NCBI GenBank assembly: GCA_008690995.1
Contig: VRMN01000001.1
Location: forward strand, 1 to 64,000
Direction: 5' to 3'
DNA: 64,000 nt
DNA from: Porphyridium purpureum
Lineage: Eukaryota; Rhodophyta; Bangiophyceae; Porphyridiales; Porphyridiaceae
This document shows, piece by piece, positions 3,370-61,140 of this stretch. How positions within the stretch are numbered: the stretch's first letter is position 1; each line of letters opens with the position of its first letter. Both the position numbers and the translations under genes were made by a program. The notes below the pieces were generated by a model, which ran no database searches, was not told the DNA's origin, and was given only the letters and a program-made list of their open reading frames with translations.

Positions 3370-4918
3370 CACTCCTGGCCAAGATGGTTGTCCCAGGTGC
3401 AATTTCAAGGTCTGAACTCCAGTTTTATAGTAAAAACGAGCGTTTTCATATGAAATCAATGTTTATACCTTTTTTAACATATTTTTGTTCACCATGTCAG
3501 AGGTAAGCGCGCGCTTTTGCGGGACCCCATGAGGCCATGAAGGGGTTCAAGACATGTGAAAGAAGACTAACGCATCTACTGCACTCGGGCATACGATCGC
3601 GACCAAGTCCAGCAACCGCAAGCATCGGAAACATGGCACCACGGCTCTCCGACTTCGAGAAAGGGCAGATTGACGCTCTGCACCGGCTCTGTCTGACGCC
3701 GCAGGCCATTGCAGCACGTCTTCGTCCGCGACCAGACAAGACTCGACCATCGTACAAGACTGTGGAGCGATTTCTGAAGAATCGAGGCAAGAAGAGGGTT
3801 TTCAAGAAGCCCGGACCGGCACGGACAATATCGCCGAAATTGGAGCGTCGCCTGATTCGGCACGTCATTACGGATAGGTTGACGTCTGCACAGGCAGTGA
3901 CGGAGCTGCAGCTTGCGTGCAGTGCGAGAACTGTTCGTCGTATCCTGCAGAGATCACCAGAGGTTCGTATTATCGCGCAGAGGCGAAAGTTCTTCATTTC
4001 GAAAAAGAACCGAGTCAAGCGGCTTGCATTTGCTCGAGAATACGTTCACAAGCCGCTATCGTTTTGGAAGAATGTCATCTTCTCGGATGAAAAGATCTTT
4101 CGGCTGGACGGGCCACACGGGTACAACAAGACTTATCAGCGAACGCGAGGCCCTGAGCCCGCGCCAACCATGCGTCGCCATAGTGGCGGAGGATCCGCAA
4201 TGTTTTGGGGTGCCATGTCGTGGTACGGACTGAGTACGTTGCATCGTGTTCAAGGCTCGCTGAATGCCGAGCGATATCGGCAGGTTATGCTGAACGTCAT
4301 AATGCCCTGGGCACTGGAACTGCCTTGGCGCCTTGATCAGCCGGATTGTCCATTCATATTTCAGCAAGATAATGCGCCCGGACATGCAGCGCTGAGCACG
4401 CGCGAGCTGTTTGACACGGTTGGAATCGCACTACTTGATCGGCTAGCGCGGTCGCCGGACTTGAATCCAGTTGAGAATCTGTGGGCGATCGTTTCTCGCC
4501 GTGTGCATTGGCAAGGACGCCAGTTTATGCGCCTCGATGACATGCTTCCAGTTATCTATGACTGCTGGCGAACGGAAGCGCCAAAATATGTTGAGGCACT
4601 TTTCGAGAGCATGCCCCGTCGCCTGCAAGCTTGCATCGACGCCGGTGGCCGTCAAACCAAGTACTAGTTTCGTTACTACAGTTAAATCTCTTCTCATAAG
4701 CGTGTTCGTCCTCATCAACCTGTTTTATTATTTTTCTCTTTTTCGGCACTTCTCACACCTGTCGTTTTGTTCTACGATACCTTTGGACGCCCCTACCCAT
4801 TTTCCGTGCCGCTGATTCTTTTCGTGCCATCAAAACAGACGACAACCTAGTCGAAAAGCCGAGTTATTCACAAAAAACTTCATTTAATCCTGTGGGACAA
4901 CTAACTTGGCCAGGACTG
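3370..4918 (+). mobile_element. Tc1/mariner element, copy A (about 1.55 kb)
   Basis: The element lies between TA dinucleotides at 3368-3369 and 4919-4920. Its ends are imperfect inverted repeats: the left begins CACTCCTGGCCAAGATGG and the right, read inward on the minus strand, begins CAGTCCTGGCCAAGTTAG; both continue TTGTCCCA. It encodes one full-length transposase. A second copy at 53930-55479 lies in the opposite orientation and has one base difference in total length, so both are recent. Confidence 0.92.
3537..4667 (+). CDS. Tc1-type DD34E transposase, copy A
   Basis: This 376-residue transposase cuts and pastes the flanking element at TA sites. Residues about 35-150 form the paired-like helix-turn-helix DNA-binding part (FEKGQIDALHRLCLTPQAIA; later a second HTH with TSAQAVTELQL). 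The catalytic triad is D184 (VIFSDEKIF), D278 (FIFQQDNAPGH) and E313 (DLNPVENLW), with 34 residues between the last two, the Tc1 signature. The ATG at 3537 gives a longer N terminus than usual; the ATG at residue 33 (MAPRLSDFEK) is an alternative start. Compared with copy B it differs at roughly eight residues, including DRLARSPDLNP where copy B has the family-typical DWPARSPDLNP. It appears intact. Confidence 0.9.
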   Translation: MKGFKTCERRLTHLLHSGIRSRPSPATASIGNMAPRLSDFEKGQIDALHRLCLTPQAIAARLRPRPDKTRPSYKTVERFLKNRGKKRVFKKPGPARTISPKLERRLIRHVITDRLTSAQAVTELQLACSARTVRRILQRSPEVRIIAQRRKFFISKKNRVKRLAFAREYVHKPLSFWKNVIFSDEKIFRLDGPHGYNKTYQRTRGPEPAPTMRRHSGGGSAMFWGAMSWYGLSTLHRVQGSLNAERYRQVMLNVIMPWALELPWRLDQPDCPFIFQQDNAPGHAALSTRELFDTVGIALLDRLARSPDLNPVENLWAIVSRRVHWQGRQFMRLDDMLPVIYDCWRTEAPKYVEALFESMPRRLQACIDAGGRQTKY

Positions 4919-5653: not shown

Positions 5654-8600
5654 CTAGTCGGTGTCTGATTGGTCAATGAGTCGTAGCAAGTCCGGTTCGG
5701 ACTCTAACGCAAGGATATCTTGGTCGGGTACTTCTTCATCATTTTCCCCTAAAGTTCGTTCGTTTCGACTGTAGTATGGCTTCATGTGTTGGATCGGAAA
5801 GACATCATGGCAAGTCAACCCGTCCGGCAATTTGACTCGATAGGCGTGACTGCTGATCTTTTCGACGATGCGTACGGGGCCGAGAAAGCGCTGACTTTCC
5901 AGGTTAGCTTTTCCTGGTCGCAGTTGTGGTGCCGTAATTAGCACTTGGTCGCCAACTTCGAATCCGCGTTTGATTTTGGTACGGTCGAAGAACTTTTGCA
6001 TCCGGCGCTGGGCTTCAACCAGATTGTCTCGAACCTCTTCTTGTACCTGACATAAACGATGCCAATGCTTCGCCAAATCTTTTGTCTGCCCATGTTGTGC
6101 ATGCGTCCATCCACCTGCTGGTGGATACCATGGTTCTCTGCCGTATACGACTTTGAACGGAGCATGTCCGGTAGAACTGCTTGGTGCGGAATTGTACGCG
6201 AACTCGTACAGCGGAAGATCTCGAACCCAGGTAGTACTCGTTGCCATCATCTTCAGCATTTCTCGGATGACACGGTTGACTCGTTCGGTCTGTCCATCCG
6301 TTTGCGGATGATTTGCGGTTGACATCGCGAGGTTCATACCCACGCGCTTGCTTAGCTGCTGCCAAAATGCCGAAGTAAAAAGTGTGTCTCTGTCCGATAC
6401 AATTGACCTTGGGTAGCCAAATCGGCTCACAACATGCTTGACAAACAAGTCGCCGCACTTCGGGGCGGTAAGCTCCTTCTTGGTTGGTATGAAGAGAGCC
6501 ATCTTGGAATAGCGATCCACTACAGTGAGAATAGCGTCGCACTTCCCTTCACTGCGTGGCAACTCTGTGACAAAATCCATGGCGATGTCTAACCACGGAC
6601 CATCTGCAATGGGAAGTGGCTTGAGTAGCCCGTAAGATCGATTCTCTGATTTCGTAACTTGGCAAGCATGGCACGTCTTCACAAATCTTCTCACTTCGTG
6701 CTTCATTTTTGGCCAGTAGAAGCGCTGAATCAGTGATGCGTACGTAGTATCGGCTCCACGGTGTCCAGCAACAGGGATATCGTGATGCAATTCCATCACA
6801 CGAGTACGAAACTTTTGCGGAACGCAAACGCGGCCCTTCAAATATAATATTCCCCTGCTCAGTCGAAAACCTTGGTGTTCCGGTACTTCCGCGACCAGCG
6901 CCGCGAAGTCTTCGTCCTTGGCGTATTCATCTTTGAAGTCTACAAAGTTCACTCCAAATTCGTCCGAACGTACTTGGTACTCCAAGGTGCCGAGATGCGG
7001 TCTGCGCGAAAGCGCGTCGGCTACTACATTGGACTTTCCTTTCACATAGTCGATCGTGATATCGAATTCGGCGAGGAAGTCTGTCCATCGTGCTTGGCGA
7101 CTGTTTAGCTCTTTCTGAGTCAGCAGGTGTTTTAGGGCCTCATGATCGGTGTGGAGCGTGAACTTGGCCCCATACAAATAGCATCTGAACTCCTTAAGGC
7201 AGTGAATTACTGCGAGAAGTTCACCCTCGTAACTACTGTACCTTGTTTCACGGTCCAAGAGCTTTCTGGATGTGAACGCAACTGGCCTATTCTCCTGCGC
7301 CAGCCAGCCTCCGACCGCGACCTCCGACCGATCCGTATACACTTCAAACGGCTTTTCTGGGTCCGGCAAAGCTAGCACCGGGGCTTCTGATAAGTGGCAG
7401 ATAATACTGCGAAACGCCTCTTTCGCCTGCGTATTCAATTCAATCATTTGTGTTTTCGACTTGACGTTTTGGAGGAGTTGAGTCAACGGTGCTACTACCG
7501 TCGAATATCCTTTCACAAAACGTCGAAACCAATTTGTCATGCCTAGGAAGGATCTCAATTCCGTCACGGTTCTCGGCTCGGGCCATTCTTTCAGGGCATT
7601 AATTTTCCGTGGGTCCATCTTGATGACTCCATTCCCAACGATGTTTCCCAAATACTCGACTTCTTGTACGAAAAAACTGCATTTCTTTCCTTTGAGTTTG
7701 TATCCAGCCTTCTGCAGTCTGGAAAAGACTTCTCTCAGAGCAGTCACGTGTGATTCTTCGTCCTTTGTGTAGACCAGAATGTCGTCGAGATAGACAACGA
7801 CTGTAGTGTCCAACAGGTCCGCAAACAATTCGTTCATGGTTCTCTGAAATGTTGCCGGGGCATTACATAACCCGAAAGGCATCACCAGAAATTCAAACAA
7901 ACCGTAACGAGTTTGGAATGCAGTCTTTTTCACGTCATCGGGCTCTACGAGGATCTGATGGTATCCGGAGAATAAGTCGAGCTTCGAGAAGTACTTTGCG
8001 TGTCTCAGCTGGTCGAGCATCTCTTCCATGTTCGGCAAGGGATATCGATCCTTGATCGTAACGTCATTCAGAGCTCGATAATCCACGCACATTCTCAAGC
8101 TCCCGTCCTTCTTCTTCACGAAGAGGACCGGAGCCCCGAAGGGACTTCGACTCGGCCGAATGAATCCTCGTTTCAGCAAGTCGTTTAGACTTTCCCGCAA
8201 AGCTTCGAGTTCACTTGGGCTCAGGCGGTACACGCGTCCAACTCTGACTGGCTTCTCATCTTTCAACTTGATGGTATGATTCACCTTGCGATCTGGGGGA
8301 AGGCTTTGCGGTTCTTCGAAGAGCCCTTCAAACTCTCTTACCAGCTTTTCAGTGTCCTCCGTACGTACGGAATCTTCCTTCACAGATGTTGTTTTTAGCA
8401 CTCCGAGAAAGCATTCTTGCAGTCCTTCGCCGCGCAAAAGTTGGCGAAGCTCCTTCCGCGTAATGACCTTGTTCGTGTTCACATTCTCGGAGCTTGCCTT
8501 CTTTCTCAGCCGCACACGTCCTTCCACCCAGTCGATGTCTGGGTTTGAAGCTCGAAGCCATTCCATTCCCAGGATGGCGTCCTGATCCTTCAGATCGCAC

Positions 8601-8917
8601 ACGACAAAGTTAATATTCTGTTCGGTTCCGTCAATCATGACCTTGACACCTTGTACCATACCAAAGGTATTTGTGGAGCTCCCGTCTGCAAGGGTTACGC
8701 TCCCTCCGTGCGAAGTAAACTTATCTTTCAAGTGTGGAATGCCGCGCAAGATGCGATGACTGAGGAAGTTGTGCGACGCGCCCGAGTCCAGCAACAAAGG
8801 AAGGTTTACACAGTCGACGCTTCCTTGGACTCTAATCATGTAATTTGCATTCCCCAGTGCACCGACTCTCGCCTGGAGCACTGTCTTGCTCAAATGGGGC
8901 TCCTTTTTCCCATCCAT
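5654..8917 (-). CDS. Gypsy-1 Pol (protease-RT-RNase H-integrase)
   Basis: A 1087-residue Pol. In order it shows an aspartic protease (LLLDSGASHNF, near residue 40), a reverse transcriptase with VVYLDDILVY, an RNase H region (EVYTDRSEVAVGGWLAQ), and an integrase with an HHCC zinc finger (HHDIPVAGH...CHACQVTK) and catalytic-core landmarks DIAMDFVTELP and SDRDTLFTS. The C terminus has a GPY/F-like module (FLGPVRIVEKISSHAYRVKLP) and no clear chromodomain. The order RT-RNase H-integrase places it in Ty3/gypsy. It looks intact. Confidence 0.93.
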   Translation of the reverse strand: MDGKKEPHLSKTVLQARVGALGNANYMIRVQGSVDCVNLPLLLDSGASHNFLSHRILRGIPHLKDKFTSHGGSVTLADGSSTNTFGMVQGVKVMIDGTEQNINFVVCDLKDQDAILGMEWLRASNPDIDWVEGRVRLRKKASSENVNTNKVITRKELRQLLRGEGLQECFLGVLKTTSVKEDSVRTEDTEKLVREFEGLFEEPQSLPPDRKVNHTIKLKDEKPVRVGRVYRLSPSELEALRESLNDLLKRGFIRPSRSPFGAPVLFVKKKDGSLRMCVDYRALNDVTIKDRYPLPNMEEMLDQLRHAKYFSKLDLFSGYHQILVEPDDVKKTAFQTRYGLFEFLVMPFGLCNAPATFQRTMNELFADLLDTTVVVYLDDILVYTKDEESHVTALREVFSRLQKAGYKLKGKKCSFFVQEVEYLGNIVGNGVIKMDPRKINALKEWPEPRTVTELRSFLGMTNWFRRFVKGYSTVVAPLTQLLQNVKSKTQMIELNTQAKEAFRSIICHLSEAPVLALPDPEKPFEVYTDRSEVAVGGWLAQENRPVAFTSRKLLDRETRYSSYEGELLAVIHCLKEFRCYLYGAKFTLHTDHEALKHLLTQKELNSRQARWTDFLAEFDITIDYVKGKSNVVADALSRRPHLGTLEYQVRSDEFGVNFVDFKDEYAKDEDFAALVAEVPEHQGFRLSRGILYLKGRVCVPQKFRTRVMELHHDIPVAGHRGADTTYASLIQRFYWPKMKHEVRRFVKTCHACQVTKSENRSYGLLKPLPIADGPWLDIAMDFVTELPRSEGKCDAILTVVDRYSKMALFIPTKKELTAPKCGDLFVKHVVSRFGYPRSIVSDRDTLFTSAFWQQLSKRVGMNLAMSTANHPQTDGQTERVNRVIREMLKMMATSTTWVRDLPLYEFAYNSAPSSSTGHAPFKVVYGREPWYPPAGGWTHAQHGQTKDLAKHWHRLCQVQEEVRDNLVEAQRRMQKFFDRTKIKRGFEVGDQVLITAPQLRPGKANLESQRFLGPVRIVEKISSHAYRVKLPDGLTCHDVFPIQHMKPYYSRNERTLGENDEEVPDQDILALESEPDLLRLIDQSDTD

Positions 8918-8922
8918 TTGAG

Positions 8923-9771
8923 CTACTCGAAATCCGGAGCCTCTTCCGTGGTGTCCGTCTCCGTTTCGTTCGCATTCTCAGTAATTGTTCGCAATTGACG
9001 GCGGTTCTCAATTTTTCCACGGGCGGCGCGGCAGTTGCGTGCAATATGTCCTACACGGCGGCACAAATAACATGTACGCGTTTCCGTACTATCGGTGCCG
9101 GTGACTGTCCCCAACTCCATGGGTGCTCGTCCATCATGATCAATACGAACCTGCGTGCGTGGCACGGAGAAAGGAGAGCGGCTTTGCATGTTTCGAGCCG
9201 CGAATATGGCGTCATCTACGGCCGACGCAACATGGAAAGCGTCCATCAGTGTCTTCGGACGGCTCTTCAGCACTTCTACCAGCACATCCTTCTTCAAACC
9301 GCGCACGAATCGATCCAAGGCTTCGGCTTCCGAAACGTCGGAACACTGCAGCAAAACATCTCGAAACGAGGACGCGTAAGCAGCCACACTTCCCTTCTGC
9401 TCAAGCCTCGCGAGGCGGTCCCGCGCCCGACGTGCGTGATCGGCGGGCAAAAACTGGGCCTGAACTGCAGCTTCGAACTCCGCCCAAGTTAGCGGGGCCT
9501 CTCGTCGCTGATTCACCAGAAACCACCACGTCAGTGCTTCTTTCTCGAAATACGTCGCAGCTGTCTGGATACTGCGCATTTCGATCTCAGGGGGGACGGC
9601 CACATCGACTGGCCCGTCCATCATCACGCGTTCACGCCAGTGCTCCACCAGCGGCGTATACACCCTTCCTTTCGCGGCAAACAACCACGTCTGAACTTCC
9701 ATCGGGTCTCGCTTCCCGGAAAACATCATCAGCTTTGCGGTCTTTACCGCCATGGCACCGGTAGAGGCCAT
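8923..9771 (-). CDS. Gypsy-1 Gag
   Basis: A 282-residue Gag with an N-terminal retrotransposon-gag region (ALTWWFLVNQRREAPLTWAEF, residues about 74-94) and a C-terminal CCHC zinc knuckle, CYLCRRVGHIARNC. It would form the particle and package element RNA. It lies just upstream of pol, which is in another frame, as is usual for elements that make pol by recoding. Confidence 0.88.
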   Translation of the reverse strand: MASTGAMAVKTAKLMMFSGKRDPMEVQTWLFAAKGRVYTPLVEHWRERVMMDGPVDVAVPPEIEMRSIQTAATYFEKEALTWWFLVNQRREAPLTWAEFEAAVQAQFLPADHARRARDRLARLEQKGSVAAYASSFRDVLLQCSDVSEAEALDRFVRGLKKDVLVEVLKSRPKTLMDAFHVASAVDDAIFAARNMQSRSPFSVPRTQVRIDHDGRAPMELGTVTGTDSTETRTCYLCRRVGHIARNCRAARGKIENRRQLRTITENANETETDTTEEAPDFE

Positions 9772-12683: not shown

Positions 12684-15314
12684 TCACACTTTCTCTGCGA
12701 GCAGGTAAGCATGCACATAGTCCATAGCGTGATGCGATGGATCATTCGCGATGCGTTGTGCGTAGCGCTCATACAACTCATCCACCAGCGCGGCTTTTTC
12801 CTCAGCACAACGTTCGTCCGAAAGTGCTGACAAGAACACGCTGTTTGACCATGTCCGAATGGTACCAATAAGTTCCGCCGGCGAGCCCTTCCCACGACCA
12901 TACGGGCACTCTGAGTATCGCCAGTCAAGATGCTTCAACTTCAAGCCCACGCTTCCGTCCAAAAAGGGGGCTGAGAGTTCCTCGGTCGAACGATAGTAGT
13001 TGGGAAAGGTCGCCGCCTCATACTCATGCTGCGAGATGCGTCCTGACTGCTTCATTTCGGACCAACAGCTATTCATTTCTTCGTACATGCATTTGAAACC
13101 TGATTTTCCGTTGAAGCCGAGACAGTGACCAGCCGGGTCTTGTGCCAGCGTCGCTATGACCATTTGCCCGCCAGGCCTCAGCTCCTTTGCTCGATGCGCC
13201 AAAAATAGACGCCAGTCGGCTTCGGCTTGCGCACGAAATGCACGCTTCGCTTCGACAGAGTTCGTTGTCGTGTGGTGCACTGCGTCGTCGAGTAGGCAGG
13301 GTACGCGGCTCAACCAGTGGACCGCCGTGTACGAAGTGCAGAGATCTACGGAGGCCGCCGGGCGGCACTGCTCGAAGAATCCACGGCCACAGGCGGTGTA
13401 GTACACGCCTGGAATGTCTGCAAGCGGAGTTGATCCGAGCGGAAGCGGCTTGAGTCCGGCGGCCAAGTAGAACAGGCTCTTAAAGTCATTGTTCGGTTGA
13501 TCCTCAAAGCACACATCAAGCTCGCACGTGGGCGGAAGAAGCGCTTTGATCGCTTGGATCATCGGCATCTCAGGTCCGCCGTCCGCTGAGCCAAAGTCGA
13601 CCATACTTACAAGTGACAGTTCCTTTTCGCCACCAATGCCAACCATGGCCCGCAGTGCGGACTCCAGAAGGTCCATGGATTTGATAACGACATCAAAGCA
13701 GCCGAGCGTTAGCTTGCTATAGATTGCTTCGCCAACCTCACCATAAGGCACGTGTGCGCGACCGAACGCAGCGGACGTTAACGGTGGCTCGTCGCACACC
13801 TTGGCGACTGTGCCGTTGCCAAGGTGCTGATGATGATGATGCTGCTGCTCCTGCGGTTGCACGTGCGAATCACTCGTATCCGATGCGTCCACGATGGAAT
13901 TTTCAACAGGTTGCGCCTCAGTGTCCAGCCGCGTCATCAGGCCCGGCCGGGACACGGCCATGCGCGAAATGTCAAACTCTGTCTCCGGTACACCGCGTAC
14001 CAGACAGCCGAGCGCGTGACCAAGCAGCGGCGCAAATTTGAATGCTCGCCCATTTCCTGCAGTAAACAGGCTCACGCTGGGGTGGCCTGGAAGCGTGTCA
14101 AGCACGAACATGGCATCGCGCGTCACCGCGTACGGCGACGTATACATATCTTGTCGCTCACCGTACAGCGTGCCCCAGCGCTCGCTTACAAACGCGTCTA
14201 TCTGCGCGACGACGCCGCCGGGTGACTCGTCTGGCGTGTAATCAAAGTGCGACATACTACGCATCCGATCACGCGCAGGCGCAAAATCGACGCCGACTTT
14301 TCCGACGGGCGTGTGATCACCTTGCTTTGGAAATCCGTAGAACAAGGCATCTTCCTTGCCGAAGAAAAACCATTGCCGAGGCTGTTTCTCCGACTGTATC
14401 TTGTAATGCCCCCAGTGCACCTTCCAAACTTCCATGTCAAGCTGAACGTCAAAATGCGCCAGCAGATCATTTGCCCATGCGCCTGCGCACAAGACAACTT
14501 TCCGCGCGCGATAAATCTGGCCGTCATGCGTAAGTATACAGTATAGCTCATTTTCATCGCCACTGATGCCATTCGATCCAGCCTTGTCGCTGTCGCGCCA
14601 CACGTCGGTCACCTGGCAGTTCAGCTCAAGTTGCCAGCGTCCTGATTCCTGCGCGAGTCGCATCATTTCCTCGCATGCCAAGCTTGAGTTTACGGATCCC
14701 GCCTCGTGCTCAATCACGCCCATATCTGCTTGCTCGGCGTAAGTCATACCATCACACGTCGCATATAGCGCTGCGGTGTTGGGTAGAACATCATGCGAAA
14801 TGCCGCGCTGCTGCATCATGCTGATAGCACTAGGAATGCTGCCTTCGACGGTCTCCCCCGTGTCTGGTTCGCCGTAGAAAAGCAGTCCGTTCTCACTCAG
14901 GAGCTTCGTCCCCGACTCGGCTTCGAGCTCGCGCCACATGCGCAGGGCAGTCGTCTGGAGCTCGCTAAAGTACGGGTCGGAGTACATTTGCCGGAACATA
15001 CGAGATTCCCCGTACGACGAACTGCGTTCGTGTGCCACGGCATCGCCCATCTCGAGCACCACGCCGTTCATTTCTGGGTCCTGCTTGCTCAGCTGATACG
15101 CCGCTGCCGTACCGGCCATTCCTGCACCCACAATCACCACGTCTACATCACGCGCGTGCTGTGCCAGCCAAGGTGTCAGCCGCCGCCCTACCGCGCGCAG
15201 GCTCGCCGGGTCCGCAGCACCGTCCGACGAGCAACGCTTGGAAGGGTTCCAAGAGCGGGAATAGAAGCGCTCGTGTCCGTCGTGGCCCGAGCCGGGCCTC
15301 CAGAGTCGGCGCAT
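12684..15314 (-). CDS. FAD-dependent amine oxidase fused to SABATH-type methyltransferase
   Basis: An 876-residue two-domain enzyme. Residues about 55-465 are a DAO/sarcosine-oxidase-type flavoprotein: FAD-binding VVIVGAGMAGTAAAYQL (59-75), the YGESRMFRQMY block (101-111), VVLCAGAWANDLL (273-285) and C-terminal GNGRAFKFAPLLGHALG. This family oxidises secondary or N-methyl amines. The residue before MYT near 389 is Asp where sarcosine oxidases carry the flavin-linking Cys, so FAD is probably not covalent. Residues about 526-876 match SABATH methyltransferases: VDFGSADGGPE (SAM site), FEDQPNNDFKSLF, FEQCRPAASVDLCTSYTAVHWLSRVP in part, and LRPGGQMVIATL. A His-rich linker joins them. The ATG at 15314 follows the dehydrogenase stop by 16 bp. 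The frame stays open further upstream inside that gene, so a fused product by splicing or frameshift is possible. Substrate unknown. Confidence 0.82.
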   Translation of the reverse strand: MRRLWRPGSGHDGHERFYSRSWNPSKRCSSDGAADPASLRAVGRRLTPWLAQHARDVDVVIVGAGMAGTAAAYQLSKQDPEMNGVVLEMGDAVAHERSSSYGESRMFRQMYSDPYFSELQTTALRMWRELEAESGTKLLSENGLLFYGEPDTGETVEGSIPSAISMMQQRGISHDVLPNTAALYATCDGMTYAEQADMGVIEHEAGSVNSSLACEEMMRLAQESGRWQLELNCQVTDVWRDSDKAGSNGISGDENELYCILTHDGQIYRARKVVLCAGAWANDLLAHFDVQLDMEVWKVHWGHYKIQSEKQPRQWFFFGKEDALFYGFPKQGDHTPVGKVGVDFAPARDRMRSMSHFDYTPDESPGGVVAQIDAFVSERWGTLYGERQDMYTSPYAVTRDAMFVLDTLPGHPSVSLFTAGNGRAFKFAPLLGHALGCLVRGVPETEFDISRMAVSRPGLMTRLDTEAQPVENSIVDASDTSDSHVQPQEQQHHHHQHLGNGTVAKVCDEPPLTSAAFGRAHVPYGEVGEAIYSKLTLGCFDVVIKSMDLLESALRAMVGIGGEKELSLVSMVDFGSADGGPEMPMIQAIKALLPPTCELDVCFEDQPNNDFKSLFYLAAGLKPLPLGSTPLADIPGVYYTACGRGFFEQCRPAASVDLCTSYTAVHWLSRVPCLLDDAVHHTTTNSVEAKRAFRAQAEADWRLFLAHRAKELRPGGQMVIATLAQDPAGHCLGFNGKSGFKCMYEEMNSCWSEMKQSGRISQHEYEAATFPNYYRSTEELSAPFLDGSVGLKLKHLDWRYSECPYGRGKGSPAELIGTIRTWSNSVFLSALSDERCAEEKAALVDELYERYAQRIANDPSHHAMDYVHAYLLAEKV

Positions 15315-15330
15315 ACCGCGTCTCCGTTCG

Positions 15331-16470
15331 TCAAACGCTTCGTTGACAAAATTCGCGCGTTTTCGCGGCAATCTGATTCTGCACAAAATGGTAAGCGATG
15401 TTTGGGCGAAGCGCTGCGAACGAGCATTTGTCCAGGCACCATTCAACCGAGTCGATGATGATCGCGCCGGCCGACGTGATTGACTCGGGCACAAAAACGA
15501 CTCCGCGGGCCGCACAAAGTTCGGCCGCTTGCGGCGTGCGGAACGGTACGTTTGCCGACCCGACGATCGCGCGGCATTGCGGTGCAAGCTCCTGGGCGAC
15601 GCGTTCGTCAATGACACCGGATGCTGCGCATGGCGCGAAAACGTCCATGTGCGCATCGCGAAACCACTCGGTGGGTGCCGCGCTGACATTCTCGCATCCA
15701 GCAATGTCAGCGCGCGAGGGGTCGAGGTCCGTGACGCGCACGCGGCAGCCATGCGCCACCAGACGCGAGGCAAGCGTGGCGCCCACTTTTCCTGCGCCCT
15801 GCACCAGCACACAAAACCCGTCTGCAAGCTGCAGGTGTTCTGCGAGCTCAACGATTGCGGCAAACGTGCCCATGGCGGTGGCCACGTTCGTGTCGAGCGT
15901 GGCGTTGGTGATGCCCGAGAGCACGTACGGCGAGATGGCATCGAGGTACACCATATCATCCGAAGACGTGTTCAAGTCGCAGCCAGTGTACACGCGGCCC
16001 CGCATGAGTGCGAGACTGCGCGCCACCTCACGCATCAGCGCGCGCTTGTCGAGGCACTCTGGTGCGTCTGCCGCAGCCACCACGAGCTTGGCCCCCGCAA
16101 ACCCCGTGTTGAACATGTTGTGCTTCATGCTCATGGTGCGCGTCAACTGTACCACATCCATGACGGCGTCTCGTGGCTTCCTGTACTGCCGCACACGCAG
16201 TCCGCCGTTACCCGGTACCGCGTCGCAGCACGCACTGTCCAGCCCGATATAGAGATCGCCAAGCTTGGCCGCGAGCGCGACCTTGTAAACATCGACCCCG
16301 GCGCCGTCTGCTCCCAGACCATACGCTTTCAAGTCTACGCGCTCCAGTGGCGACCGACTCGTGTCAATCGCATACGTCGGCACGGTCTTCAACGCCGGGT
16401 CGTCCGACCGGGTTCCATCCTTCTCATTGTCACCGGCAGCTGCGTCGACCACGCATGCGGACTGCACCAT
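15331..16470 (-). CDS. Leu/Phe/Val-type NAD(P)-dependent amino-acid dehydrogenase
   Basis: A 379-residue member of the Glu/Leu/Phe/Val dehydrogenase family, which interconverts an amino acid and its 2-oxo acid. Catalytic landmarks align with leucine dehydrogenase: both lysines (MSMKHN and GFAGAKLVV) and the aspartate in YTGCDLNTS. The Rossmann motif is VLVQGAGKVGATLASRL (about residues 222-238), followed by an acidic residue after the second strand (VTDLD), suggesting NAD. DVFAPCAASGVI and IVGSANVPF are also typical. The C terminus is shorter than in bacterial leucine dehydrogenases. It is co-oriented with the oxidase-methyltransferase gene, which begins 16 bp after the stop in the +1 frame. 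ScyB-like dehydrogenases are another possible subgroup. Specificity cannot be read. Confidence 0.85.
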   Translation of the reverse strand: MVQSACVVDAAAGDNEKDGTRSDDPALKTVPTYAIDTSRSPLERVDLKAYGLGADGAGVDVYKVALAAKLGDLYIGLDSACCDAVPGNGGLRVRQYRKPRDAVMDVVQLTRTMSMKHNMFNTGFAGAKLVVAAADAPECLDKRALMREVARSLALMRGRVYTGCDLNTSSDDMVYLDAISPYVLSGITNATLDTNVATAMGTFAAIVELAEHLQLADGFCVLVQGAGKVGATLASRLVAHGCRVRVTDLDPSRADIAGCENVSAAPTEWFRDAHMDVFAPCAASGVIDERVAQELAPQCRAIVGSANVPFRTPQAAELCAARGVVFVPESITSAGAIIIDSVEWCLDKCSFAALRPNIAYHFVQNQIAAKTREFCQRSV

Positions 16471-20221: not shown

Positions 20222-20576
20222 TGTTGAAGTACGCCCCCGGCGTAAACCCTGCAAAGTCAAGAAACGGTTTACTTTGTAATACCACTCGCGTCAAAAACAT
20301 ATTCGCCTACCCAAACGCTACACTCAAAATTTCCACCCTACTCCTTGGCCCTGCAGCATTTTATACCCCTGTAGCTGCACTGTGGCGGCGGCGCGGAGAT
20401 GCAAAGCGACAAGGAAACGTCAGTGTGGACTTCTAGAAACGTCGCAAACATACGTGCCCATGGCTCGTGCTAGCACGCAGGCTCGCACCCGACCGAACAC
20501 ATTAAACAGTCCAAACAGTCCAAGTCGTTGACCCGGATAACCATTCAACCATTAACCATTTGCACGTACATCAACA
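20222..20576 (-). repeat. Copia-1 3' LTR
   Basis: A 355-bp LTR with terminal TGTTGA/TCAACA inverted repeats and a TATAAAA box on the minus strand near 20360. The pol frame ends inside it, at 20552. Confidence 0.92.
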
Positions 20577-23500
20577 CACTCCCGTCGGTCCGTGTTAGCC
20601 TGCGCTAGATTCGCAACCTCAACGCCCAACATGCGTTCACGAAGTGAGCGGAAAGCTTTTCCTTGCAGGGGCTTGGTGTGAGCGTCCGCCACCATCTGCT
20701 CCGTGGGGCAGTACGTCATCTCTATCTCGCCGCATGCAACTCTGTCGCTGACGAAGAAGTGCCTCAGAGCAATGTGTCGGGTCCGCGACGAGTTGGGACG
20801 CCCGTTACGAACTAATTTCATGGTGGCCTCGTTATCTTGGTACAACAGGGTGCTGAGGCACTCCACACCGAGCCCTCGCAGCAACCTCTCGATCCAGAGA
20901 GCTTGACCTATGCAGTCACTGATGGCGACTAGCTCTGCCTCTGTTGAGCTCTTGGACGCGAGACTCTGACGGCTGCTCTTCCCGTACACCGTTCCGCGGC
21001 CCAGGCTGACCATGCAGCCAGAGTGGCTCTTCATGTCGCTGTGCACACCAAAGGACGCGTCAATGAAACAGTGCACGCGCGGCGCTCCGACGCACCCAAG
21101 TGTGAGCCCCAGCTCGCGCGTTCCTTGCAAGTACTGCACAACCCTGCGCAGCTTTTCTCTGTCTTGTTCGGTTGGGGCTTGTACTCGACCCGTCAAGAAT
21201 GATGCCGCGACCAGCAGATCTGGTCTCGCCCTCTTGCTGAGATAAAGAAGTTGACAGGCTGTCGTGTGGAAGGCTCTCGCGGAGGAAGCAGCCAGCAATG
21301 GCGAGTCTTGAACCTGAAACAGGTCGTCCAATGCGGGGGTTTTGCCACCGACCTTACCCAGCACAAATGGCTCGGCCTGCTCAATGATCTTGTCCGCGTA
21401 TGCGGGCATCCTGACGGTAACTTGACCAGGTTGGTTATAGTCAAAAACCATTTGTAAATATTCAATCACACTGCCGCTGCGCATCGTGAGCACTCCGTAC
21501 TCCGGCTCGAGTCCCTTTACCAGTTTGACGATCGCGGCGTCGTTTACAGCCATAATCTTCATGTCGTCCACGTGTAAAGCTAACCAGGTGTCGTCTTCAT
21601 CGCTTCTGAACACGCAATAGTCTACCATGCTTCTTTGGTATCCCAACGCCGCGAGGCTTCGACATAGATGGTCATACCATAACTTTGCGCTCGTCCGGCA
21701 ACCATATAATGCTTTCTTCAAGCGACAGACTAATGTACCTGAAGCAGACAAATGGCTCTGGAGTGTCGGATCAGCGGTCGTCATACACTTCGCCAGCGCC
21801 TTTGCGAACCGAACGAAAACGGGTGGATCACCGCTTGGCATCACTGCATTCAAATACGCACCTGGAAAATCTACACTGGCAACCTTTCTCCCTTGTGTTG
21901 CTGACATGGCAGCAAGCGCAAACAACGACTCAGTAGCGACTGTTGGGGACGACGTATTTGGGTACAACTCCGGATCCTGTCGATCACCCCCAGCAACCAG
22001 TCGAGCTTTCAAGCGCACAAGCTCTCCGGTTTGTGGATCACGTTTCTCCGTCACAAACAAATGCACGGGCAAAACATTGCGCAACTCGTCTTCACTGAGT
22101 CTCCTTGTCACAGGCTCAAACACGTCGTGACCATTGGACCCCAACTGCACGAGCTCGCTCATGACCGATTCAAGTGCAGGCTCGCCATACTCCTGGACTG
22201 CTCTCAACCATGAGACGGTCGGCGCTTTCAAACAGTGCGCTTGGACAAACTCTGTAATTAGAGCTAGCCTAATTCTACGCCTTTTTGCTTCCCCTGCGTA
22301 TGTATTGCACCCGTCACTTCCGCCTTGATCCGCTGCCGTTCTTTTGGTGCTAAGTCCGCCGACAGAAGCCGGTCCAGCCTGTTCACCATGTCCGTCCAGT
22401 ACGTTTTTCGTTGTCATTGTGCAATCTGCGAGATCCCACTCTGCAGGTGCCCCTTCGACCACGCCGACTTGAACAGCCTGACCTTCGCCTAAGACGTCGT
22501 GATCGTCGCTGACCTGGTAGGCAGCAGCACGTTTGTCAAGCGCGTGGATCTGTTCCTGCAGAATGGCCTCTTTTCGAGATAATTCCTCAATTCTTTTCTC
22601 GATTGCTTCGACCCGCACTCCCGGATTTTCCTCTGCGTTTTCTCCCGCTCCTGGATTACGGTTCGGTTGTGATGATTCTACTACTGCTGACGTGCGCGAA
22701 TTCTCCAGAGTTTCTTCATGTTCATTCGCAGAACGCGCTGCACGTGTCTCGCTAAACGCTCCGGCTGACAAGGTCAACCCACTAGCTGTTCGAGTCGCTG
22801 CTGCCCCAGCTGGCTTGCCTGCCTCCCGTCCGGCGGTGTCATGTTTTTCTGCCTCATGCTCATGATCTTCTGTCGTGAGTTCAAGGCGCGCAGTGCCACG
22901 CATGGCGTTAACAGCGGCAACAACCTCTTGTGTAATGACAGTTTTCCTCCACCGTTGTCTGCGCAACTCTTTCTGCGACGCGAGGTTTAGAAAAGCCCAC
23001 GTTCCTTCAACATTGCCTACCGGGTATAGAGCTATACAGCCGGTGGCGCGTGGTGTCATCGTGTTGTCCACCTTGGCATTCATGATGAGAACGTAATCGC
23101 CAAAACCGAGACTCACATCGGCTGTGCTGCTAACTTTTCGCCCGGTCATTCTGGTCCACGGAGTCTCGTCATCTCGCCAACCTGTGCTGCTTGGTACGAT
23201 GTTGGCCCGGTGAGTTACATACTTCATTAGCGCTGGAACCAAGCTGGTCGGCAATGCAAAGGGTAGGCCATGGATGACAGCCCTCGCTATGTCCTTCAGC
23301 GTTCGATTGGCACGCTCCACTGCTGGTACGGCCTCTTTCGCTCCCGTGACATTTGGTAATATGCCGGACCTTTTCATGTCATCAACGATAGCAACAATCC
23401 CCGATTCCGGGTCCGACTTGATGACCCTGATCACCACGTTGTGACCTCGCAAACTGGCAATTTGTTCTTGCAGTGCCCGGCGCAGCTCCCATGACGTCTT

Positions 23501-24382
23501 TGCTCTGATCGCTGTTGTCAGAATGAAGTGCATTGGTTTCACGACAGAAATCAAGAAGGCTTGTCCGCAGAGAAAGTGGATATCCGAATGCATCTCTTGG
23601 TAGACCTCCTCATTTCTTATCGGGACGTAGCCAACTTCCGTAGGCTTGTGTCCAGTTGCCTTTCCTTTGATCGCGGCTTCGCTTGGGCCAAACAATTGTT
23701 CGGCTCTCTCTGCATCCCGCGCGGCCAAATTACAATTTTCAACATCCCCGCGCCTAAGCACTTTTTTCAGCACGTCGAACGAAGGGAATCCCAAGCGACG
23801 TTGTAAGTCGCGCGCTTGTTCTGCCCGGGCTATCTCTTGCTTTGTGAAGGGCGAAGGTTTGCCGCCACTAGGTAACGGTAAAGCTGAACGCTCCATGGAG
23901 TTGTGGCGGCTGTCAGTGGAGAAGCATTTGTGTGCGGGAATGTTGTCAAGATCGTGCGTCAGGCCATTGCAAGGAGCTGCGTATGCGTTTATCTTACCAC
24001 TTACGCAACAGATATCCGCCACATACAGCCCCTGGTCCTGTCTGAAACGCACTTCCTTGTTGTCAACATCCAGAACAACAAACACGTCCCCGGCCATGTC
24101 ATACTTGGTGCCCTTGTCTTCGTTCCTCAGCTTGGCGAATGACAAGATGTTCCCGGCCACTTTCTGCGAGTAGTACACTTCGCCAAATTTGGTGTCGGCA
24201 ATCTCGTCAATAAATATTCCACTTGATCCGGCGTCAATTCCGTGCAGCACGACCTTCCGGTCCGTCTTGCGCACGTTCGTAACCGCCTCACCACTCGAAA
24301 AGATATGCTCCGAAGCCATTGTATCAAGGCCCACTGTGGCCGCTTCCCTGTTTGTCGCCCGGTGGACATACACGTGTCGCAA
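20552..24382 (-). CDS. Copia-1 Pol (integrase-RT-RNase H)
   Basis: A 1276-residue Pol in copia order. The N-terminal protease-like and gag-pre-integrase regions come first (LGFPSFDVLKKVL), then the integrase core (MHSDIHFLCGQAF; VIKSDPESGIV; PAVERANRTLKDIAR). An acidic, coiled-coil spacer follows, then the RT (KVASVDFPGAYLNAVMPSGD; CRLKKALYGCRTSAKLWYDHL; LALHVDDMKIM) and RNase H (KSSTEAELVAISDCI; DNEATMKL). Integrase before RT defines Ty1/copia. The stop lies within the 3' LTR. It looks intact. Confidence 0.92.
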   Translation of the reverse strand: MRHVYVHRATNREAATVGLDTMASEHIFSSGEAVTNVRKTDRKVVLHGIDAGSSGIFIDEIADTKFGEVYYSQKVAGNILSFAKLRNEDKGTKYDMAGDVFVVLDVDNKEVRFRQDQGLYVADICCVSGKINAYAAPCNGLTHDLDNIPAHKCFSTDSRHNSMERSALPLPSGGKPSPFTKQEIARAEQARDLQRRLGFPSFDVLKKVLRRGDVENCNLAARDAERAEQLFGPSEAAIKGKATGHKPTEVGYVPIRNEEVYQEMHSDIHFLCGQAFLISVVKPMHFILTTAIRAKTSWELRRALQEQIASLRGHNVVIRVIKSDPESGIVAIVDDMKRSGILPNVTGAKEAVPAVERANRTLKDIARAVIHGLPFALPTSLVPALMKYVTHRANIVPSSTGWRDDETPWTRMTGRKVSSTADVSLGFGDYVLIMNAKVDNTMTPRATGCIALYPVGNVEGTWAFLNLASQKELRRQRWRKTVITQEVVAAVNAMRGTARLELTTEDHEHEAEKHDTAGREAGKPAGAAATRTASGLTLSAGAFSETRAARSANEHEETLENSRTSAVVESSQPNRNPGAGENAEENPGVRVEAIEKRIEELSRKEAILQEQIHALDKRAAAYQVSDDHDVLGEGQAVQVGVVEGAPAEWDLADCTMTTKNVLDGHGEQAGPASVGGLSTKRTAADQGGSDGCNTYAGEAKRRRIRLALITEFVQAHCLKAPTVSWLRAVQEYGEPALESVMSELVQLGSNGHDVFEPVTRRLSEDELRNVLPVHLFVTEKRDPQTGELVRLKARLVAGGDRQDPELYPNTSSPTVATESLFALAAMSATQGRKVASVDFPGAYLNAVMPSGDPPVFVRFAKALAKCMTTADPTLQSHLSASGTLVCRLKKALYGCRTSAKLWYDHLCRSLAALGYQRSMVDYCVFRSDEDDTWLALHVDDMKIMAVNDAAIVKLVKGLEPEYGVLTMRSGSVIEYLQMVFDYNQPGQVTVRMPAYADKIIEQAEPFVLGKVGGKTPALDDLFQVQDSPLLAASSARAFHTTACQLLYLSKRARPDLLVAASFLTGRVQAPTEQDREKLRRVVQYLQGTRELGLTLGCVGAPRVHCFIDASFGVHSDMKSHSGCMVSLGRGTVYGKSSRQSLASKSSTEAELVAISDCIGQALWIERLLRGLGVECLSTLLYQDNEATMKLVRNGRPNSSRTRHIALRHFFVSDRVACGEIEMTYCPTEQMVADAHTKPLQGKAFRSLRERMLGVEVANLAQANTDRRECVDVRANG

Positions 24383-24394
24383 CGGGCCGCTTCC

Positions 24395-25426
24395 TCACTC
24401 GACCGTGCGCTCTTTCTTGAGCTCCAGCTTAAGTTCCTGAAGTTGACGCTGGCACTCGCCAAGTTTTTCTTCCATGGTTCGTGTGTGAGCGTCCCTGGTC
24501 TGGTTCCTTTCCAGTGCCCTCTTCTTCTTCCAGCAGTTCTTCTCCAGGTGTCCCGGGATACCACAAAAATGACACTTCCCCTTGGAACCGCCTACATCAG
24601 CTTTTGCAACCGCAGCTATCGCTTCACCACTTACAGTGGCCGCCTCGATGGCTAACTGGGCTTCATTGGATTGCGCAACTGAAACGGACACATAACCAGG
24701 CGCATACTTGTACGCGGAGACGTACAAAACCACGTCCTGAACGCTTGCAAATTGTCGCTCGGCATTGTGGGCTTGGCGAATTGCCTCTGCGAAGCGCGAC
24801 CGCTCCAACTTATGGAAGAACTCTTCCGCCTGACGCGCTGCACTCATCTCCTCGCCTACAAGGGCGAGAACCATCGCTGCGGCCGCAAACCTGGTTTTGA
24901 AATCATCCAGAGAATCTGCTCCAATTTCTATAGCTTGAAACCGCTCACGTGCAAATGTACGGCAACGATCCACGGATGCGCCATTCGGTGTCAGGTGCAC
25001 CACGACGATTAGATTTTTCAGCTGGAGAGGATCGTTGCGAGATCTTTCAAGCATCTCAAACTGCGGGCGAGCAGAAAGAGCCGCAACGGAAGACGTAGAC
25101 AGCTGTCCGCGCATAATCGCATAGATTCTGGACCTCGCGAGCTCCATATCCGCGCTCCATTTGAGCGCGGTGCTCAACTGTGATTTGGCGATTTCCTTGT
25201 CTCTCCAGTTGTCGGGCTCCTCTGCGTCCGGTAGGGCCGGGCCCTCTGGGTACCTCGCATTATTGAGGTCGAAAATCGCTCCGAGCAACCCAAATTCAAC
25301 AGCTGTGTAGCCTCCAAGCGCACGGAGCCATTCCGTGACTTCCTCGGCCGGCCGCATCTCGGTCGCATCATACCTCAGTAGCGGGAGTCCCTCCGTTACT
25401 CCCTTTTCGCCAATCTTCTTGGCCAT
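24395..25426 (-). CDS. Copia-1 Gag
   Basis: A 343-residue Gag with a UBN2-like N-terminal half (DELGADSLDDFKTRFAAA region) and a CCHC knuckle CHFCGIPGHLEKNC near residue 285, then a basic, coiled-coil-prone C terminus. gag and pol are adjacent and in the same phase, compatible with the read-through or single-polyprotein strategies known in retroelements. Confidence 0.85.
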   Translation of the reverse strand: MAKKIGEKGVTEGLPLLRYDATEMRPAEEVTEWLRALGGYTAVEFGLLGAIFDLNNARYPEGPALPDAEEPDNWRDKEIAKSQLSTALKWSADMELARSRIYAIMRGQLSTSSVAALSARPQFEMLERSRNDPLQLKNLIVVVHLTPNGASVDRCRTFARERFQAIEIGADSLDDFKTRFAAAAMVLALVGEEMSAARQAEEFFHKLERSRFAEAIRQAHNAERQFASVQDVVLYVSAYKYAPGYVSVSVAQSNEAQLAIEAATVSGEAIAAVAKADVGGSKGKCHFCGIPGHLEKNCWKKKRALERNQTRDAHTRTMEEKLGECQRQLQELKLELKKERTVE

Positions 25427-27228: not shown

Positions 27229-30200
27229 TCATTCAGAGTCAGACTCTTCGATAATTTTCAACAAGTCTGACTCAGAATTGGACGCTGGCAGATCGTCGGG
27301 TACTTCTTCATCATTTTCCCCTGCCATGTAGTCTTCGCGTCCATAGTATGGCTTCAGATGTTGGATCGGAAAAACATCATGACAAGCCACACCCTCGGGC
27401 AAAATCACTCGGTAAGCATGCGAGCTTACCTTCTCAATGACAGGCACCGGACCAAGAAACTTTGGTGCCGCCAAATCACTCTTGTTCGGCCGCAGTTGCG
27501 GCGCCGTGACCAACACTTGATCACCAACTTGAAACTCCCGGGCATCCTTGCTTCGATCGAAGAACTTCTGCATTCTCCCCTGGGCTTCGATCAAATTGTC
27601 GCGGACTTCTTCATGGACTTTGCACAGGCGAAACCAGTGCTCCGCCATGTCCTTCGTTTGTCCGTCACGCGCAGGCCTCCACCCTTCGCTCGGTGGAAAC
27701 CAAGGATCCCTTCCATACACCACTTTGAACGGCGCGAATCCAGTGGCACTGCTTGGTGCGGAGTTGTACGCAAACTCGTACAACGGCAAGTCTCGCACCC
27801 AGCCACTATTCGTCGCCATCAACTTGAGCATTTCCCGAATCACGCGGTTCACTCGCTCAGTTTGGCCATCTGTCTGCGGGTGGTTGGCGGTAGACATAGC
27901 CAACTTCATGCCCACCCGCTTGCTCAACTGCTGCCAAAACGTGGACGTAAACAGCGGATCTCGGTCCGACACAATCGACTTGGGGTATCCGAAACGGCTC
28001 ACGACGTGCTTCACGAACAAGTCAGCACAACGTTTTGCTGTCAAGTCCTTGCGCGTCGGGATAAACAGCGCCATCTTCGAATAGCGATCCACCACAGTCA
28101 TGATTGCATCACAGCTGCCTTCGCTCCGAGGCAGCTCCGTCACCAAGTCCATCGAAATGTCGACCCAAGGTCCTTCTGGGATCGACAAGGGCTTCAGCTT
28201 TCCAAACGACCGATTCTCAGACTTTGTCACTTGGCATGCGTGACAAGTCTTCACAAAACGGCTCACGTCTCGCTTCATCTTTGGCCAGTAGAAGCGAGTG
28301 ATCAAAGATGCATACGTCGTGTCGGCTCCACGGTGTCCTGCTGTCGGGATATCGTGGTGGAGCTGCATGACACGCTCTCTGAACTTCCTCGGCACGCAAA
28401 CGCGATTCCTCAAGTACAAGAGCCCAGCTTCGGTTCGAAAGCCTTGGTGGGTCGGTAAATCCCCCATCAAAGCACCAAAGTCTGGGTCACTCGAGTACGA
28501 ACCCACGAATGCCTGGAACCCCGCACCAAATTCATCACACCGAACTTGGTACTCTAGCGCATGCAACTCTGGCTTTCTCGACAAAGCGTCGGCCACCACG
28601 TTCGACTTTCCCTTCACATAGTCGATTGTGATATCAAACTCGGCTAAAAAGTCCAACCACCGTGCTTGCCGGCCATTCAGCTCCTTCTGCGTCATCAAAT
28701 GTTTCAACGCCTCATGATCTGTATGAAGCACAAACTTTGCCCCGTACAGATAAGGTCGAAACTCTCGCAGACAGTGAATGACGGCCATGAGCTCACCTTC
28801 ATAGCTGCTGTACCTGGTCTCTCGGTCCAGCAGCTTCCTTGACGTAAACGCGACCGGTCTGCCTTCCTGTGCCAGCCATTCCCCCACCGCGACTTCGGAG
28901 CGGTCCGTGTACACCTCAAATGGCTTTTCAGGGTCTGGCAAGGCCAACACCGGCGCTTCCGTCAACATCCCCACAATCTTCTTGAAGGCCGACTTGCCTT
29001 CATCTCCCAGTTCGATCAGCTGCTTCTTCGACTTTGTGTTCTGCAACAGCGAAGTCAGCGGCGCCACGACGGTAGAGTATCCTTTAACAAACCTCCGAAA
29101 CCAGTTTGTCATTCCCAAAAAGGATCTCAACTCCGTCACCGTCTTTGGCACTGGCCAATCTCTCAAAGCTTCCACCTTCCGTGGATCCATCTTCACGCAA
29201 CCGTTGCCGACAATGTTCCCCAGGTATTCGACTTCAGAAACGAAGAAGCTGCACTTCTTGCGCTTCAACCGATACCCCGCCTTTTGCAAGCGCGACAACA
29301 CTTCCTTCAGGACCTCGCCGTGCGACTGCCTATCCTTGGTAAAGACCAAAATATCGTCCAAGTAGACAATGACGGTCTTGTCCAGCAGATCTGCAAACAG
29401 CTCGTTCATGGCCCTCTGAAAAGTTGCCGGCGCGTTGCAAAGACCAAACGGCATCACACGGAACTCGAACTGTCCGTACCTGGTCTGGAACGCGGTCTTC
29501 GGCACGTCCTCTCTCCGAACACGCAACTGGTGGTATCCCGATGCCAAGTCCAACTTTGAGAAACAGTGAGCTGCTCCCAGTCGATCCAGCAACTCATCCA
29601 TGTTCGGCAACGGATACCGGTCCTTCACAGTCGCGTCGTTCAACGCCCGATAATCGACGCACATCCTCATGCTGCCGTCTTTCTTCTTCACGAACAGCAC
29701 GGGTGCTCCAAACGGGCTCTGACTCGGCTGGACGAATCCCTTATCCAGCAAGTCATCCAAAGTCTCTCGGAGGACTTTCAACTCCGCAGGGCTCAGTCGG
29801 TAGACCCTGCCCACTCTCACAGGCTTCTCATCTTTCAGCCTAATCACATGCTCCACTGTTCGGCTCTCAGGCAGCCCTCGCGGCTCCTCGAACAGACTTT
29901 CGAAATCTTTGAGCATCTTCTTCACAGAGTCATCTCCTTTGCGCTCCACTGAACAGGGCTCCTCCCTTCCTTTCAGCACGCCGAGGTAGCACTCTTCTAC
30001 CTCCTGACTCTTCAACAGCCGACGGAGCTCTTTCCGTGGCACCAGCATCTGCGTCATGCTCCAGGCCTTCTTCTCTCCGTAGGCCAACATGCCAGACTGC
30101 CAATCAATCACTGGGTTCTCCCGCTTCAGCCACTCCATGCCCAAGATTGCGTCTTGTCCCGCAATCCGGCAAATGGCAAAGTTAGCGGCCCCTGAGTACC

Positions 30201-30720
30201 CATCGCTCAGTTCAAACTTGACATTGGAAACTTCTCCGGCTGTTTCCAATACAGACCCATCCGCTAGGGTCACATGATCTCTCTTCCACGACGCCTTCTG
30301 CTTCAGGCCGTCGGATTTCAGCACAAAGTCCACGCTCATGAAGTTGTCCGTCGCGCCACTGTCAATCAAAAACGTGGCCTCTCCGTCGGACTTGTGCACT
30401 TTTCCTCGAACTCGAAGAAGCATGGCAGCTCCCATCCCTCCAAGTTCCTTGATCACGGGCTGATTTGCGCTCGAGTTTCGCCCACAAGGTTTCGGACAGC
30501 CAGACCTTGGCTTACCAAGGCCACCACAGCGGTCTTCATTGCCGCCCCTAGAGGTCTCGTAACGTCTGCGAGCCTCCTTTCCCTCTGACTGTCCGAGGAA
30601 CCTTTTTACTCGAGCTCCTCGTTTTTTGACTCCAGCGAGTCTCCCTCCAGCTGCTGAATAGTCTTCCTTGCCTCGGGACACTTCCTGGCGATGTGTCCCG
30701 GCTTTCCACAATTCCAGCAT
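27229..30720 (-). CDS. Gypsy-2 Pol (protease-RT-RNase H-integrase)
   Basis: A 1163-residue Pol, closely similar to that of gypsy-1 in RT, RNase H and integrase. Landmarks: protease FLIDSGATDNFM, RT VIVYLDDILVF, RNase H EVYTDRSEVAVGEWLAQ, integrase HHDIPTAGH...CHACQVTK and SDRDPLFTSTFWQ, and a terminal FLGPVPVIEKVSSHAYRV module. The first 100 residues overlap the end of gag and may not be translated in this frame from this start. It looks intact. Confidence 0.92.
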   Translation of the reverse strand: MLELWKAGTHRQEVSRGKEDYSAAGGRLAGVKKRGARVKRFLGQSEGKEARRRYETSRGGNEDRCGGLGKPRSGCPKPCGRNSSANQPVIKELGGMGAAMLLRVRGKVHKSDGEATFLIDSGATDNFMSVDFVLKSDGLKQKASWKRDHVTLADGSVLETAGEVSNVKFELSDGYSGAANFAICRIAGQDAILGMEWLKRENPVIDWQSGMLAYGEKKAWSMTQMLVPRKELRRLLKSQEVEECYLGVLKGREEPCSVERKGDDSVKKMLKDFESLFEEPRGLPESRTVEHVIRLKDEKPVRVGRVYRLSPAELKVLRETLDDLLDKGFVQPSQSPFGAPVLFVKKKDGSMRMCVDYRALNDATVKDRYPLPNMDELLDRLGAAHCFSKLDLASGYHQLRVRREDVPKTAFQTRYGQFEFRVMPFGLCNAPATFQRAMNELFADLLDKTVIVYLDDILVFTKDRQSHGEVLKEVLSRLQKAGYRLKRKKCSFFVSEVEYLGNIVGNGCVKMDPRKVEALRDWPVPKTVTELRSFLGMTNWFRRFVKGYSTVVAPLTSLLQNTKSKKQLIELGDEGKSAFKKIVGMLTEAPVLALPDPEKPFEVYTDRSEVAVGEWLAQEGRPVAFTSRKLLDRETRYSSYEGELMAVIHCLREFRPYLYGAKFVLHTDHEALKHLMTQKELNGRQARWLDFLAEFDITIDYVKGKSNVVADALSRKPELHALEYQVRCDEFGAGFQAFVGSYSSDPDFGALMGDLPTHQGFRTEAGLLYLRNRVCVPRKFRERVMQLHHDIPTAGHRGADTTYASLITRFYWPKMKRDVSRFVKTCHACQVTKSENRSFGKLKPLSIPEGPWVDISMDLVTELPRSEGSCDAIMTVVDRYSKMALFIPTRKDLTAKRCADLFVKHVVSRFGYPKSIVSDRDPLFTSTFWQQLSKRVGMKLAMSTANHPQTDGQTERVNRVIREMLKLMATNSGWVRDLPLYEFAYNSAPSSATGFAPFKVVYGRDPWFPPSEGWRPARDGQTKDMAEHWFRLCKVHEEVRDNLIEAQGRMQKFFDRSKDAREFQVGDQVLVTAPQLRPNKSDLAAPKFLGPVPVIEKVSSHAYRVILPEGVACHDVFPIQHLKPYYGREDYMAGENDEEVPDDLPASNSESDLLKIIEESDSE

Positions 30721-61074: not shown

Positions 61075-61140
61075 TTCCAAGAGGCCGTGCCAGCCGCCGC
61101 GTTCCAGAACATCCACGCGGCTCTGCCGGCACTGCTGCAC

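Follow-up and report, generated by a model that had tools for sequence, protein, structure and literature searches.

The locus analysed here lies on the minus strand of a 64,000 nt stretch of the Porphyridium purpureum genome (GenBank assembly GCA_008690995.1, contig VRMN01000001.1, positions 1 to 64,000; the whole stretch is called the window below), where an ELFV amino-acid dehydrogenase (DH), an FAD amine oxidase (DAO) and a SABATH methyltransferase are encoded one after the other. These three enzymes form a real, conserved unit, whose members are found fused or linked in operons across phyla, and for which we infer lysine, picolinate and homarine as the compounds involved. The locus is likely to be a single gene for a three-domain enzyme, which would make the betaine homarine (N-methylpicolinate) from L-lysine.

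In the proposed pathway, the N-terminal dehydrogenase would deaminate lysine at the alpha position, using NAD+, to give an oxo acid expected to cyclise to delta1-piperideine-2-carboxylate (P2C). P2C would be aromatised to picolinate by the NikD-like FAD oxidase with O2, and the SABATH domain would finally methylate the ring nitrogen with S-adenosylmethionine (SAM), yielding homarine. Homarine is among the most abundant small molecules of marine plankton. If the proposal is correct, it provides marker genes for homarine producers and a compact biocatalyst for three steps, and a widespread cluster of picocyanobacteria now assigned to nitrogen acquisition would instead spend nitrogen on an osmolyte.

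Organization of the locus

The open reading frames (ORFs) and the Pfam scores of ELFV_dehydrog (PF00208, 62.6 bits against a cut-off of 23.4), DAO (PF01266, 111.7 against 27.9) and Methyltransf_7 (PF03492, 103.4 against 29.8) confirm the layout given in the original prediction, i.e. a dehydrogenase ORF separated by 16 bp (15330-15315) from the ATG of an oxidase-SABATH fusion ORF on the same strand. The N-terminal dehydrogenase family PF02812 stays under its cut-off in the window DH (19.7 against 25.3 bits).

Table 1. Features of the locus, in window coordinates.
Feature	Position	Strand	Remarks
ELFV amino-acid dehydrogenase ORF (P0001)	16470..15331	minus	379 aa; ORF list, Pfam
Oxidase-SABATH ORF (P0002)	15314..12684	minus	876 aa; ATG at 15314 may be intronic
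DAO (FAD amine oxidase) domain, MSOX/NikD fold	14010..15143	minus	residues 58-435 of the 876-aa protein
SABATH methyltransferase domain (PF03492)	12711..13532	minus	residues 595-868 of the 876-aa protein
Codon of DH Asp340, aligned to LeuDH Val294	15451..15453	minus	alignment
Codon of oxidase Glu157, aligned to NikD Glu101, TVEGSIP segment	14844..14846	minus	alignment
Candidate 100-nt GT-AG intron joining the DH and oxidase frames	15237..15336	minus	splice-pair scan, P0010 alignment

The frame of the 876-aa protein stays open upstream to 15959, beyond the DH stop. Residues 33-351 of the three-domain protein P0010 from Tribonema minus align to 16269-15307, crossing the TGA, and residues 351-1197 to 15236-12687; positions 15306-15237 of the window are left unaligned, though the residues of P0010 run contiguous there. 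Because the two ORFs of the window tile P0010 and the oxidase frame is open to 15959, DH and oxidase-SABATH probably make up one polypeptide, encoded by one gene with a short intron, to which the DH stop, the 16 bp after it and the ATG at 15314 would probably belong. The candidate intron listed in Table 1 would excise the DH stop; its donor is poor and does not match the consensus. Since 21 GT-AG pairs are able to join the two frames, none of them with a consensus donor, an intron and a base error are both retained as explanations. By codon statistics, a change of frame near 15346-15364 is preferred, and no frame stands out as coding between about 15340 and 15190.

A dehydrogenase and an oxidase-SABATH protein encoded by two separate genes, an arrangement compatible with any proposed function, would agree with a stop and an ATG only 16 bp apart and with the failure to find a consensus donor. 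It appears quite unlikely, as relatives carry the three domains contiguous across the junction, and 16 bp is too little space for two eukaryotic transcripts. On this comparison, the junction is better explained by a short intron or by a base error. The search of the host genome (22.16 Mb, 46 contigs) revealed that the locus is its sole match to the three-domain relative, and the SABATH domain its sole SABATH match. The genome also gave two matches to phycobilisome families, in keeping with a red alga.

Fused relatives

A search with the 876-aa protein returned the protein itself and 14 relatives, 11 of which contain DH, DAO and SABATH within one protein of 910-1,220 aa; the exceptions are P0013, lacking the oxidase, P0014, lacking DH, and P0016, lacking SABATH. 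The three-domain relatives include those of Tribonema minus and Nephroselmis pyriformis (P0011), the others being transcriptome or environmental entries. The pairing of oxidase and SABATH, proposed as a subject for searches in other genomes, is conserved. The dehydrogenase had been described as a neighbour: its association with the other two is borne out by relatives and operons, but in the relatives it sits within the same protein.

A profile of the full-length forms collected 92 proteins, including the query members and some weak, unrelated tail matches. DH-DAO proteins without a fused SABATH were found in diatoms (Nitzschia inconspicua, Pseudo-nitzschia multistriata, Cylindrotheca closterium, Chaetoceros sp. 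GSL56, Corethron pennatum) and green algae (Dunaliella salina, Pedinophyceae sp., Pycnococcus provasolii). In the DH-oxidase proteins of haptophytes (Diacronema lutheri, Pavlovales sp.) the oxidase belongs to a different DAO subgroup, and P0068 combines a haptophyte-type oxidase with the domain order SABATH-DH-DAO; these fusions (P0068, P0078-P0084) suggest that the oxidase step was replaced. All three domains are fused in one protein of Shewanella surugensis. The 49 pattern matches in viral contigs contained no relatives. At the N-termini of the diatom proteins P0035 and P0037, signal-like stretches and an AFQP motif were seen by eye; we take the motif to resemble those of plastid targeting.

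Operons and transporter linkage

Twenty-five loci were recovered from prokaryote species genomes; these comprise the Shewanella fusion and 20 loci from Prochlorococcus or Synechococcus, the latter with the order SABATH-DH-DAO in 18 (L024 and L025 are cut at the contig start). The same operon is found in a metagenome-assembled genome (MAG) of Myxococcales. The expectation that the modules belong together is thus supported by fusion in algae and Shewanella and by operons in picocyanobacteria. Streptomyces mashuensis and S. griseocarneus (L023, L026) share a similar gene order, DH-DAO-AMP ligase.

Among 300 genomes of the Synechococcus RCC307 family, SABATH was detected in 52 (strong matches; two weak ones were left out), DAO in exactly these genomes and DH in these and one more, and in all the 52 genomes the three genes are consecutive, ordered and on the same strand. 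A transporter of the BCCT (betaine/carnitine/choline) family, matched with E up to 1e-30, is present in 51 of the 52 operon genomes versus 0 of the 248 others, and in 50 of these 51 it lies 37-114 bases beyond the DAO match. A Fisher test of this association gives 3.4e-57; as the genomes are related and not independent, only the counts are usable. BCCT genes also occur at six Synechococcus loci and at the Myxococcales locus of the prokaryote scan, and none was found beside the operon at locus L030.

Substrate of the dehydrogenase

The window DH is an ELFV amino-acid dehydrogenase by its match to PF00208 and by the catalytic residues Lys116, Lys128 and Asp165, all retained; it reached no NCBIfam cut-off. 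Its AlphaFold2 model (mean predicted local distance difference test score, pLDDT, 84.4) has phenylalanine dehydrogenase (PheDH) 1c1d as top Foldseek match. The fold and the catalytic Lys/Lys/Asp are common to leucine, phenylalanine and tryptophan dehydrogenases, from which the family differs at positions 40 and 294 of leucine dehydrogenase (LeuDH), presumably those governing side-chain choice. In an alignment of 80 rows, after exclusion of 8 proteins that lack the N-terminal motif, Leu40 is replaced by Asn and Val294 by Asp, each in 79 rows; the sole exception, L023, is out of frame in the alignment, and the Asp is present in its true frame. Overall, the Asp motif was found in 83 of 84 proteins, the remaining one having no DH domain. 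The corresponding residues of the window DH, Asn88 and Asp340, fall in the predicted side-chain pocket. With its hydrophobic residues replaced, this polar pocket contradicts the Leu/Phe/Val specificity originally assumed; the acidic residue would suit a side chain that carries a positive charge, as in lysine.

In the literature (papers are cited here and below from excerpts), a picocyanobacterial cluster, Pro-eCAG_009 (leuDH-soxA-CK_00001744), is described in terms of leucine use (PMC10119275). From its gene names and distribution it is probably the SABATH-DH-DAO operon found here, because the operon matches include HNLC1 and HNLC2; the gene set would then be common, the function being read here as homarine synthesis and not as leucine use. 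According to the published reading, extended to the locus, DH would free ammonium from branched-chain amino acids such as leucine, with oxidase and methyltransferase as accessory enzymes, and a leucine dehydrogenase KEGG orthology (KO) term is listed among cyclone-enriched nitrogen genes of Prochlorococcus (PMC12236433). Such nitrogen catabolism is very unlikely, given the Asn and Asp in place of the hydrophobic pocket residues, and it leaves unexplained the linked SAM methyltransferase and betaine transporter, as well as the three-domain fusion. A Synechococcus transcript annotated as 'SAM dependent carboxyl methyltransferase' which may or may not come from the SABATH gene, is reported to go up under iron chelation (PMC9723758).

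Relationship of the oxidase to NikD

The oxidase shares PF01266 and an MSOX-like fold with the MSOX/NikD flavoenzymes. It carries the segment containing Glu101 of NikD, a residue which we take to be catalytic, and its predicted reaction is P2C oxidation. Glu101, Tyr258 and Lys358 of NikD are retained in all of 23 chosen family rows, and the Glu101 motif occurs in 69 of 84 proteins; the segment is missing in the MSOX, MTOX and SoxA references and in 7 of 7 other proteins. NikD groups with the family in the oxidase tree (99/95), on a branch 4.06 long and flagged as unsure. When the RCC307 oxidase was compared with PDB sequences, NikD scored 112.7 bits, sarcosine oxidase 7exs 108.7 and MSOX 1zov 95.8.

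In nikkomycin biosynthesis, L-lysine is processed by the 2-aminotransferase NikC, and P2C is then oxidised to picolinate by NikD (PMC4021061). The lysine/picolinate route is proposed because the dehydrogenase and the NikD-like oxidase mirror this pair: in both, alpha-deamination is followed by a flavoenzyme of the monomeric sarcosine oxidase type, but here a dehydrogenase would stand in for the aminotransferase and methylation for CoA ligation. Lysine is suggested as substrate by the DH Asp at the Val294 position together with the Glu101 segment. The DH-DAO-AMP ligase clusters of Streptomyces resemble NikD plus picolinate-CoA ligase (PMC4021061) and possibly make a picolinate-derived natural product; the AMP ligase in place of SABATH fits picolinate as the common intermediate. 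Aminotransferase-oxidase fusions (P0086-P0090) were considered as NikC-NikD analogues and discarded: P0088 and P0090 match pyridoxal phosphate (PLP) enzymes of the EgtE/SufS type, and the Glu101 segment is missing in all five.

Methylation and homarine

The third domain is a SABATH methyltransferase by PF03492 and by fold. Its closest structure is 5f2k, a mycobacterial fatty acid O-methyltransferase, with which it shares 26% identity when the structures are aligned. It differs from other SABATH enzymes in being fused to an oxidase and a dehydrogenase, and in the N-methylation predicted for it. A methyltransferase combined with a betaine transporter points to the betaine of picolinate, homarine; N- over O-methylation is suggested by the transporter and by the abundance of homarine.

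The same chemistry could end differently, by O-methylation to methyl picolinate or by use of another diamino acid (for example ornithine, leading to pyrrole-2-carboxylate). SABATH relatives in PDB are mostly named O-methyltransferases, though the N-methyltransferases 6lyi and 6lyh are also listed, and any terminal amine would suit the pocket Asp. A neutral ester, however, should not need a BCCT transporter, and homarine has been measured and is abundant in Synechococcus; such outcomes are considered unlikely.

Homarine is reported at up to 400 mM in Synechococcus cultures, with about 100 times less in WH7803, and was also present in four out of six diatoms and in one strain of E. huxleyi (PMC8269262). 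It rises with salinity in E. huxleyi (PMC3721227) and is contained in Thalassiosira pseudonana (PMC12817926). The genes for its synthesis are called uncharacterised by the authors in excerpts of PMC8269262, PMC8269247 and PMC9723723, the first of which mentions an alternative route from tryptophan via quinolinate, with an uncharacterised decarboxylase. No report of homarine biosynthetic genes was found among the matches listed in the open-licence PMC literature, preprints being outside the scope. The methylated, amino-acid-derived product foreseen in the original prediction remains likely; that account was incomplete, and homarine can now be put forward as the specific compound. Evidence leans, somewhat less firmly than for the enzyme itself, towards the single polypeptide being a complete homarine synthase and the operon of Synechococcus and high-nutrient, low-chlorophyll (HNLC) Prochlorococcus a principal genetic source of surface-ocean homarine.

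Several observations weigh against the proposed NikD-like chemistry and its homarine product. SABATH enzymes chiefly methylate carboxyl groups, and the fused SABATH is absent from the diatom and several green-algal forms, where a separate one was not sought. BCCT was not found beside 12 Prochlorococcus operons (with little downstream sequence at L018), and the host alga genome gave zero BCCT matches. In a Legionellaceae MAG, DAO is followed by an aminotransferase, on a contig with 207 bases ahead of the oxidase; a DH may lie beyond the contig start. No report of homarine in the host genus was found among the matches listed in the open-licence PMC literature.

As to the oxidase, the lead of NikD among the PDB matches of the RCC307 enzyme is narrow, and MSOX and NikD are tied in the structure search, which, run with the whole 876-aa model, tests chiefly the oxidase part. 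The Glu101 motif is lacking in 15 proteins: 8 have the haptophyte-type oxidase, in 5 the oxidase is absent or cut off, and two are full proteins, P0029, with Gln, and P0074, without the segment. Unlike NikD, the family does not retain the covalent-FAD Cys, replaced by Ser in the window and in nearly all in-frame rows and by Ala in P0015 (in another alignment this column is displaced and one relative shows Cys), nor the mobile Trp355, which is Arg in 17, Gln in 4 and His in 2 of the 23 rows. Asp276 was dropped as a NikD marker, being alignment-dependent and aligned with Asp also in SoxA and in aminotransferase-oxidase proteins.

In PDB, the window oxidase domain is best matched by MTOX and MSOX, both scoring above NikD, as would be expected if N-methyl amino acids were turned over or made by an oxidase of the sarcosine-oxidase type paired with the methyltransferase. 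That function is nevertheless hardly probable, and the original reading of the oxidase appears to be off, since the oxidase carries the Glu101 segment that separates NikD from the N-methyl-amino-acid oxidases MSOX, MTOX and SoxA, and reaches neither the MTOX nor the soxA cut-off of NCBIfam.

Other features of the window

Long retrotransposon ORFs, Gypsy-like and apparently Copia-like, surround the locus at 5654-9771, 20552-25426 and 27229-31433, all on the minus strand (Pfam was run on 5654-8917 only). Two near-identical 376-aa transposase ORFs of the Tc1/mariner type lie in opposite orientation at 3537-4667 (plus) and 54181-55311 (minus), the first one checked with Pfam. A large ADP-forming acyl-CoA synthetase-like protein (Succ_CoA_lig, ATP-grasp_5) is encoded at 42193-45438 (plus), and a protein-L-isoaspartate methyltransferase domain fused to a BTB domain at 58840-61140 (minus).

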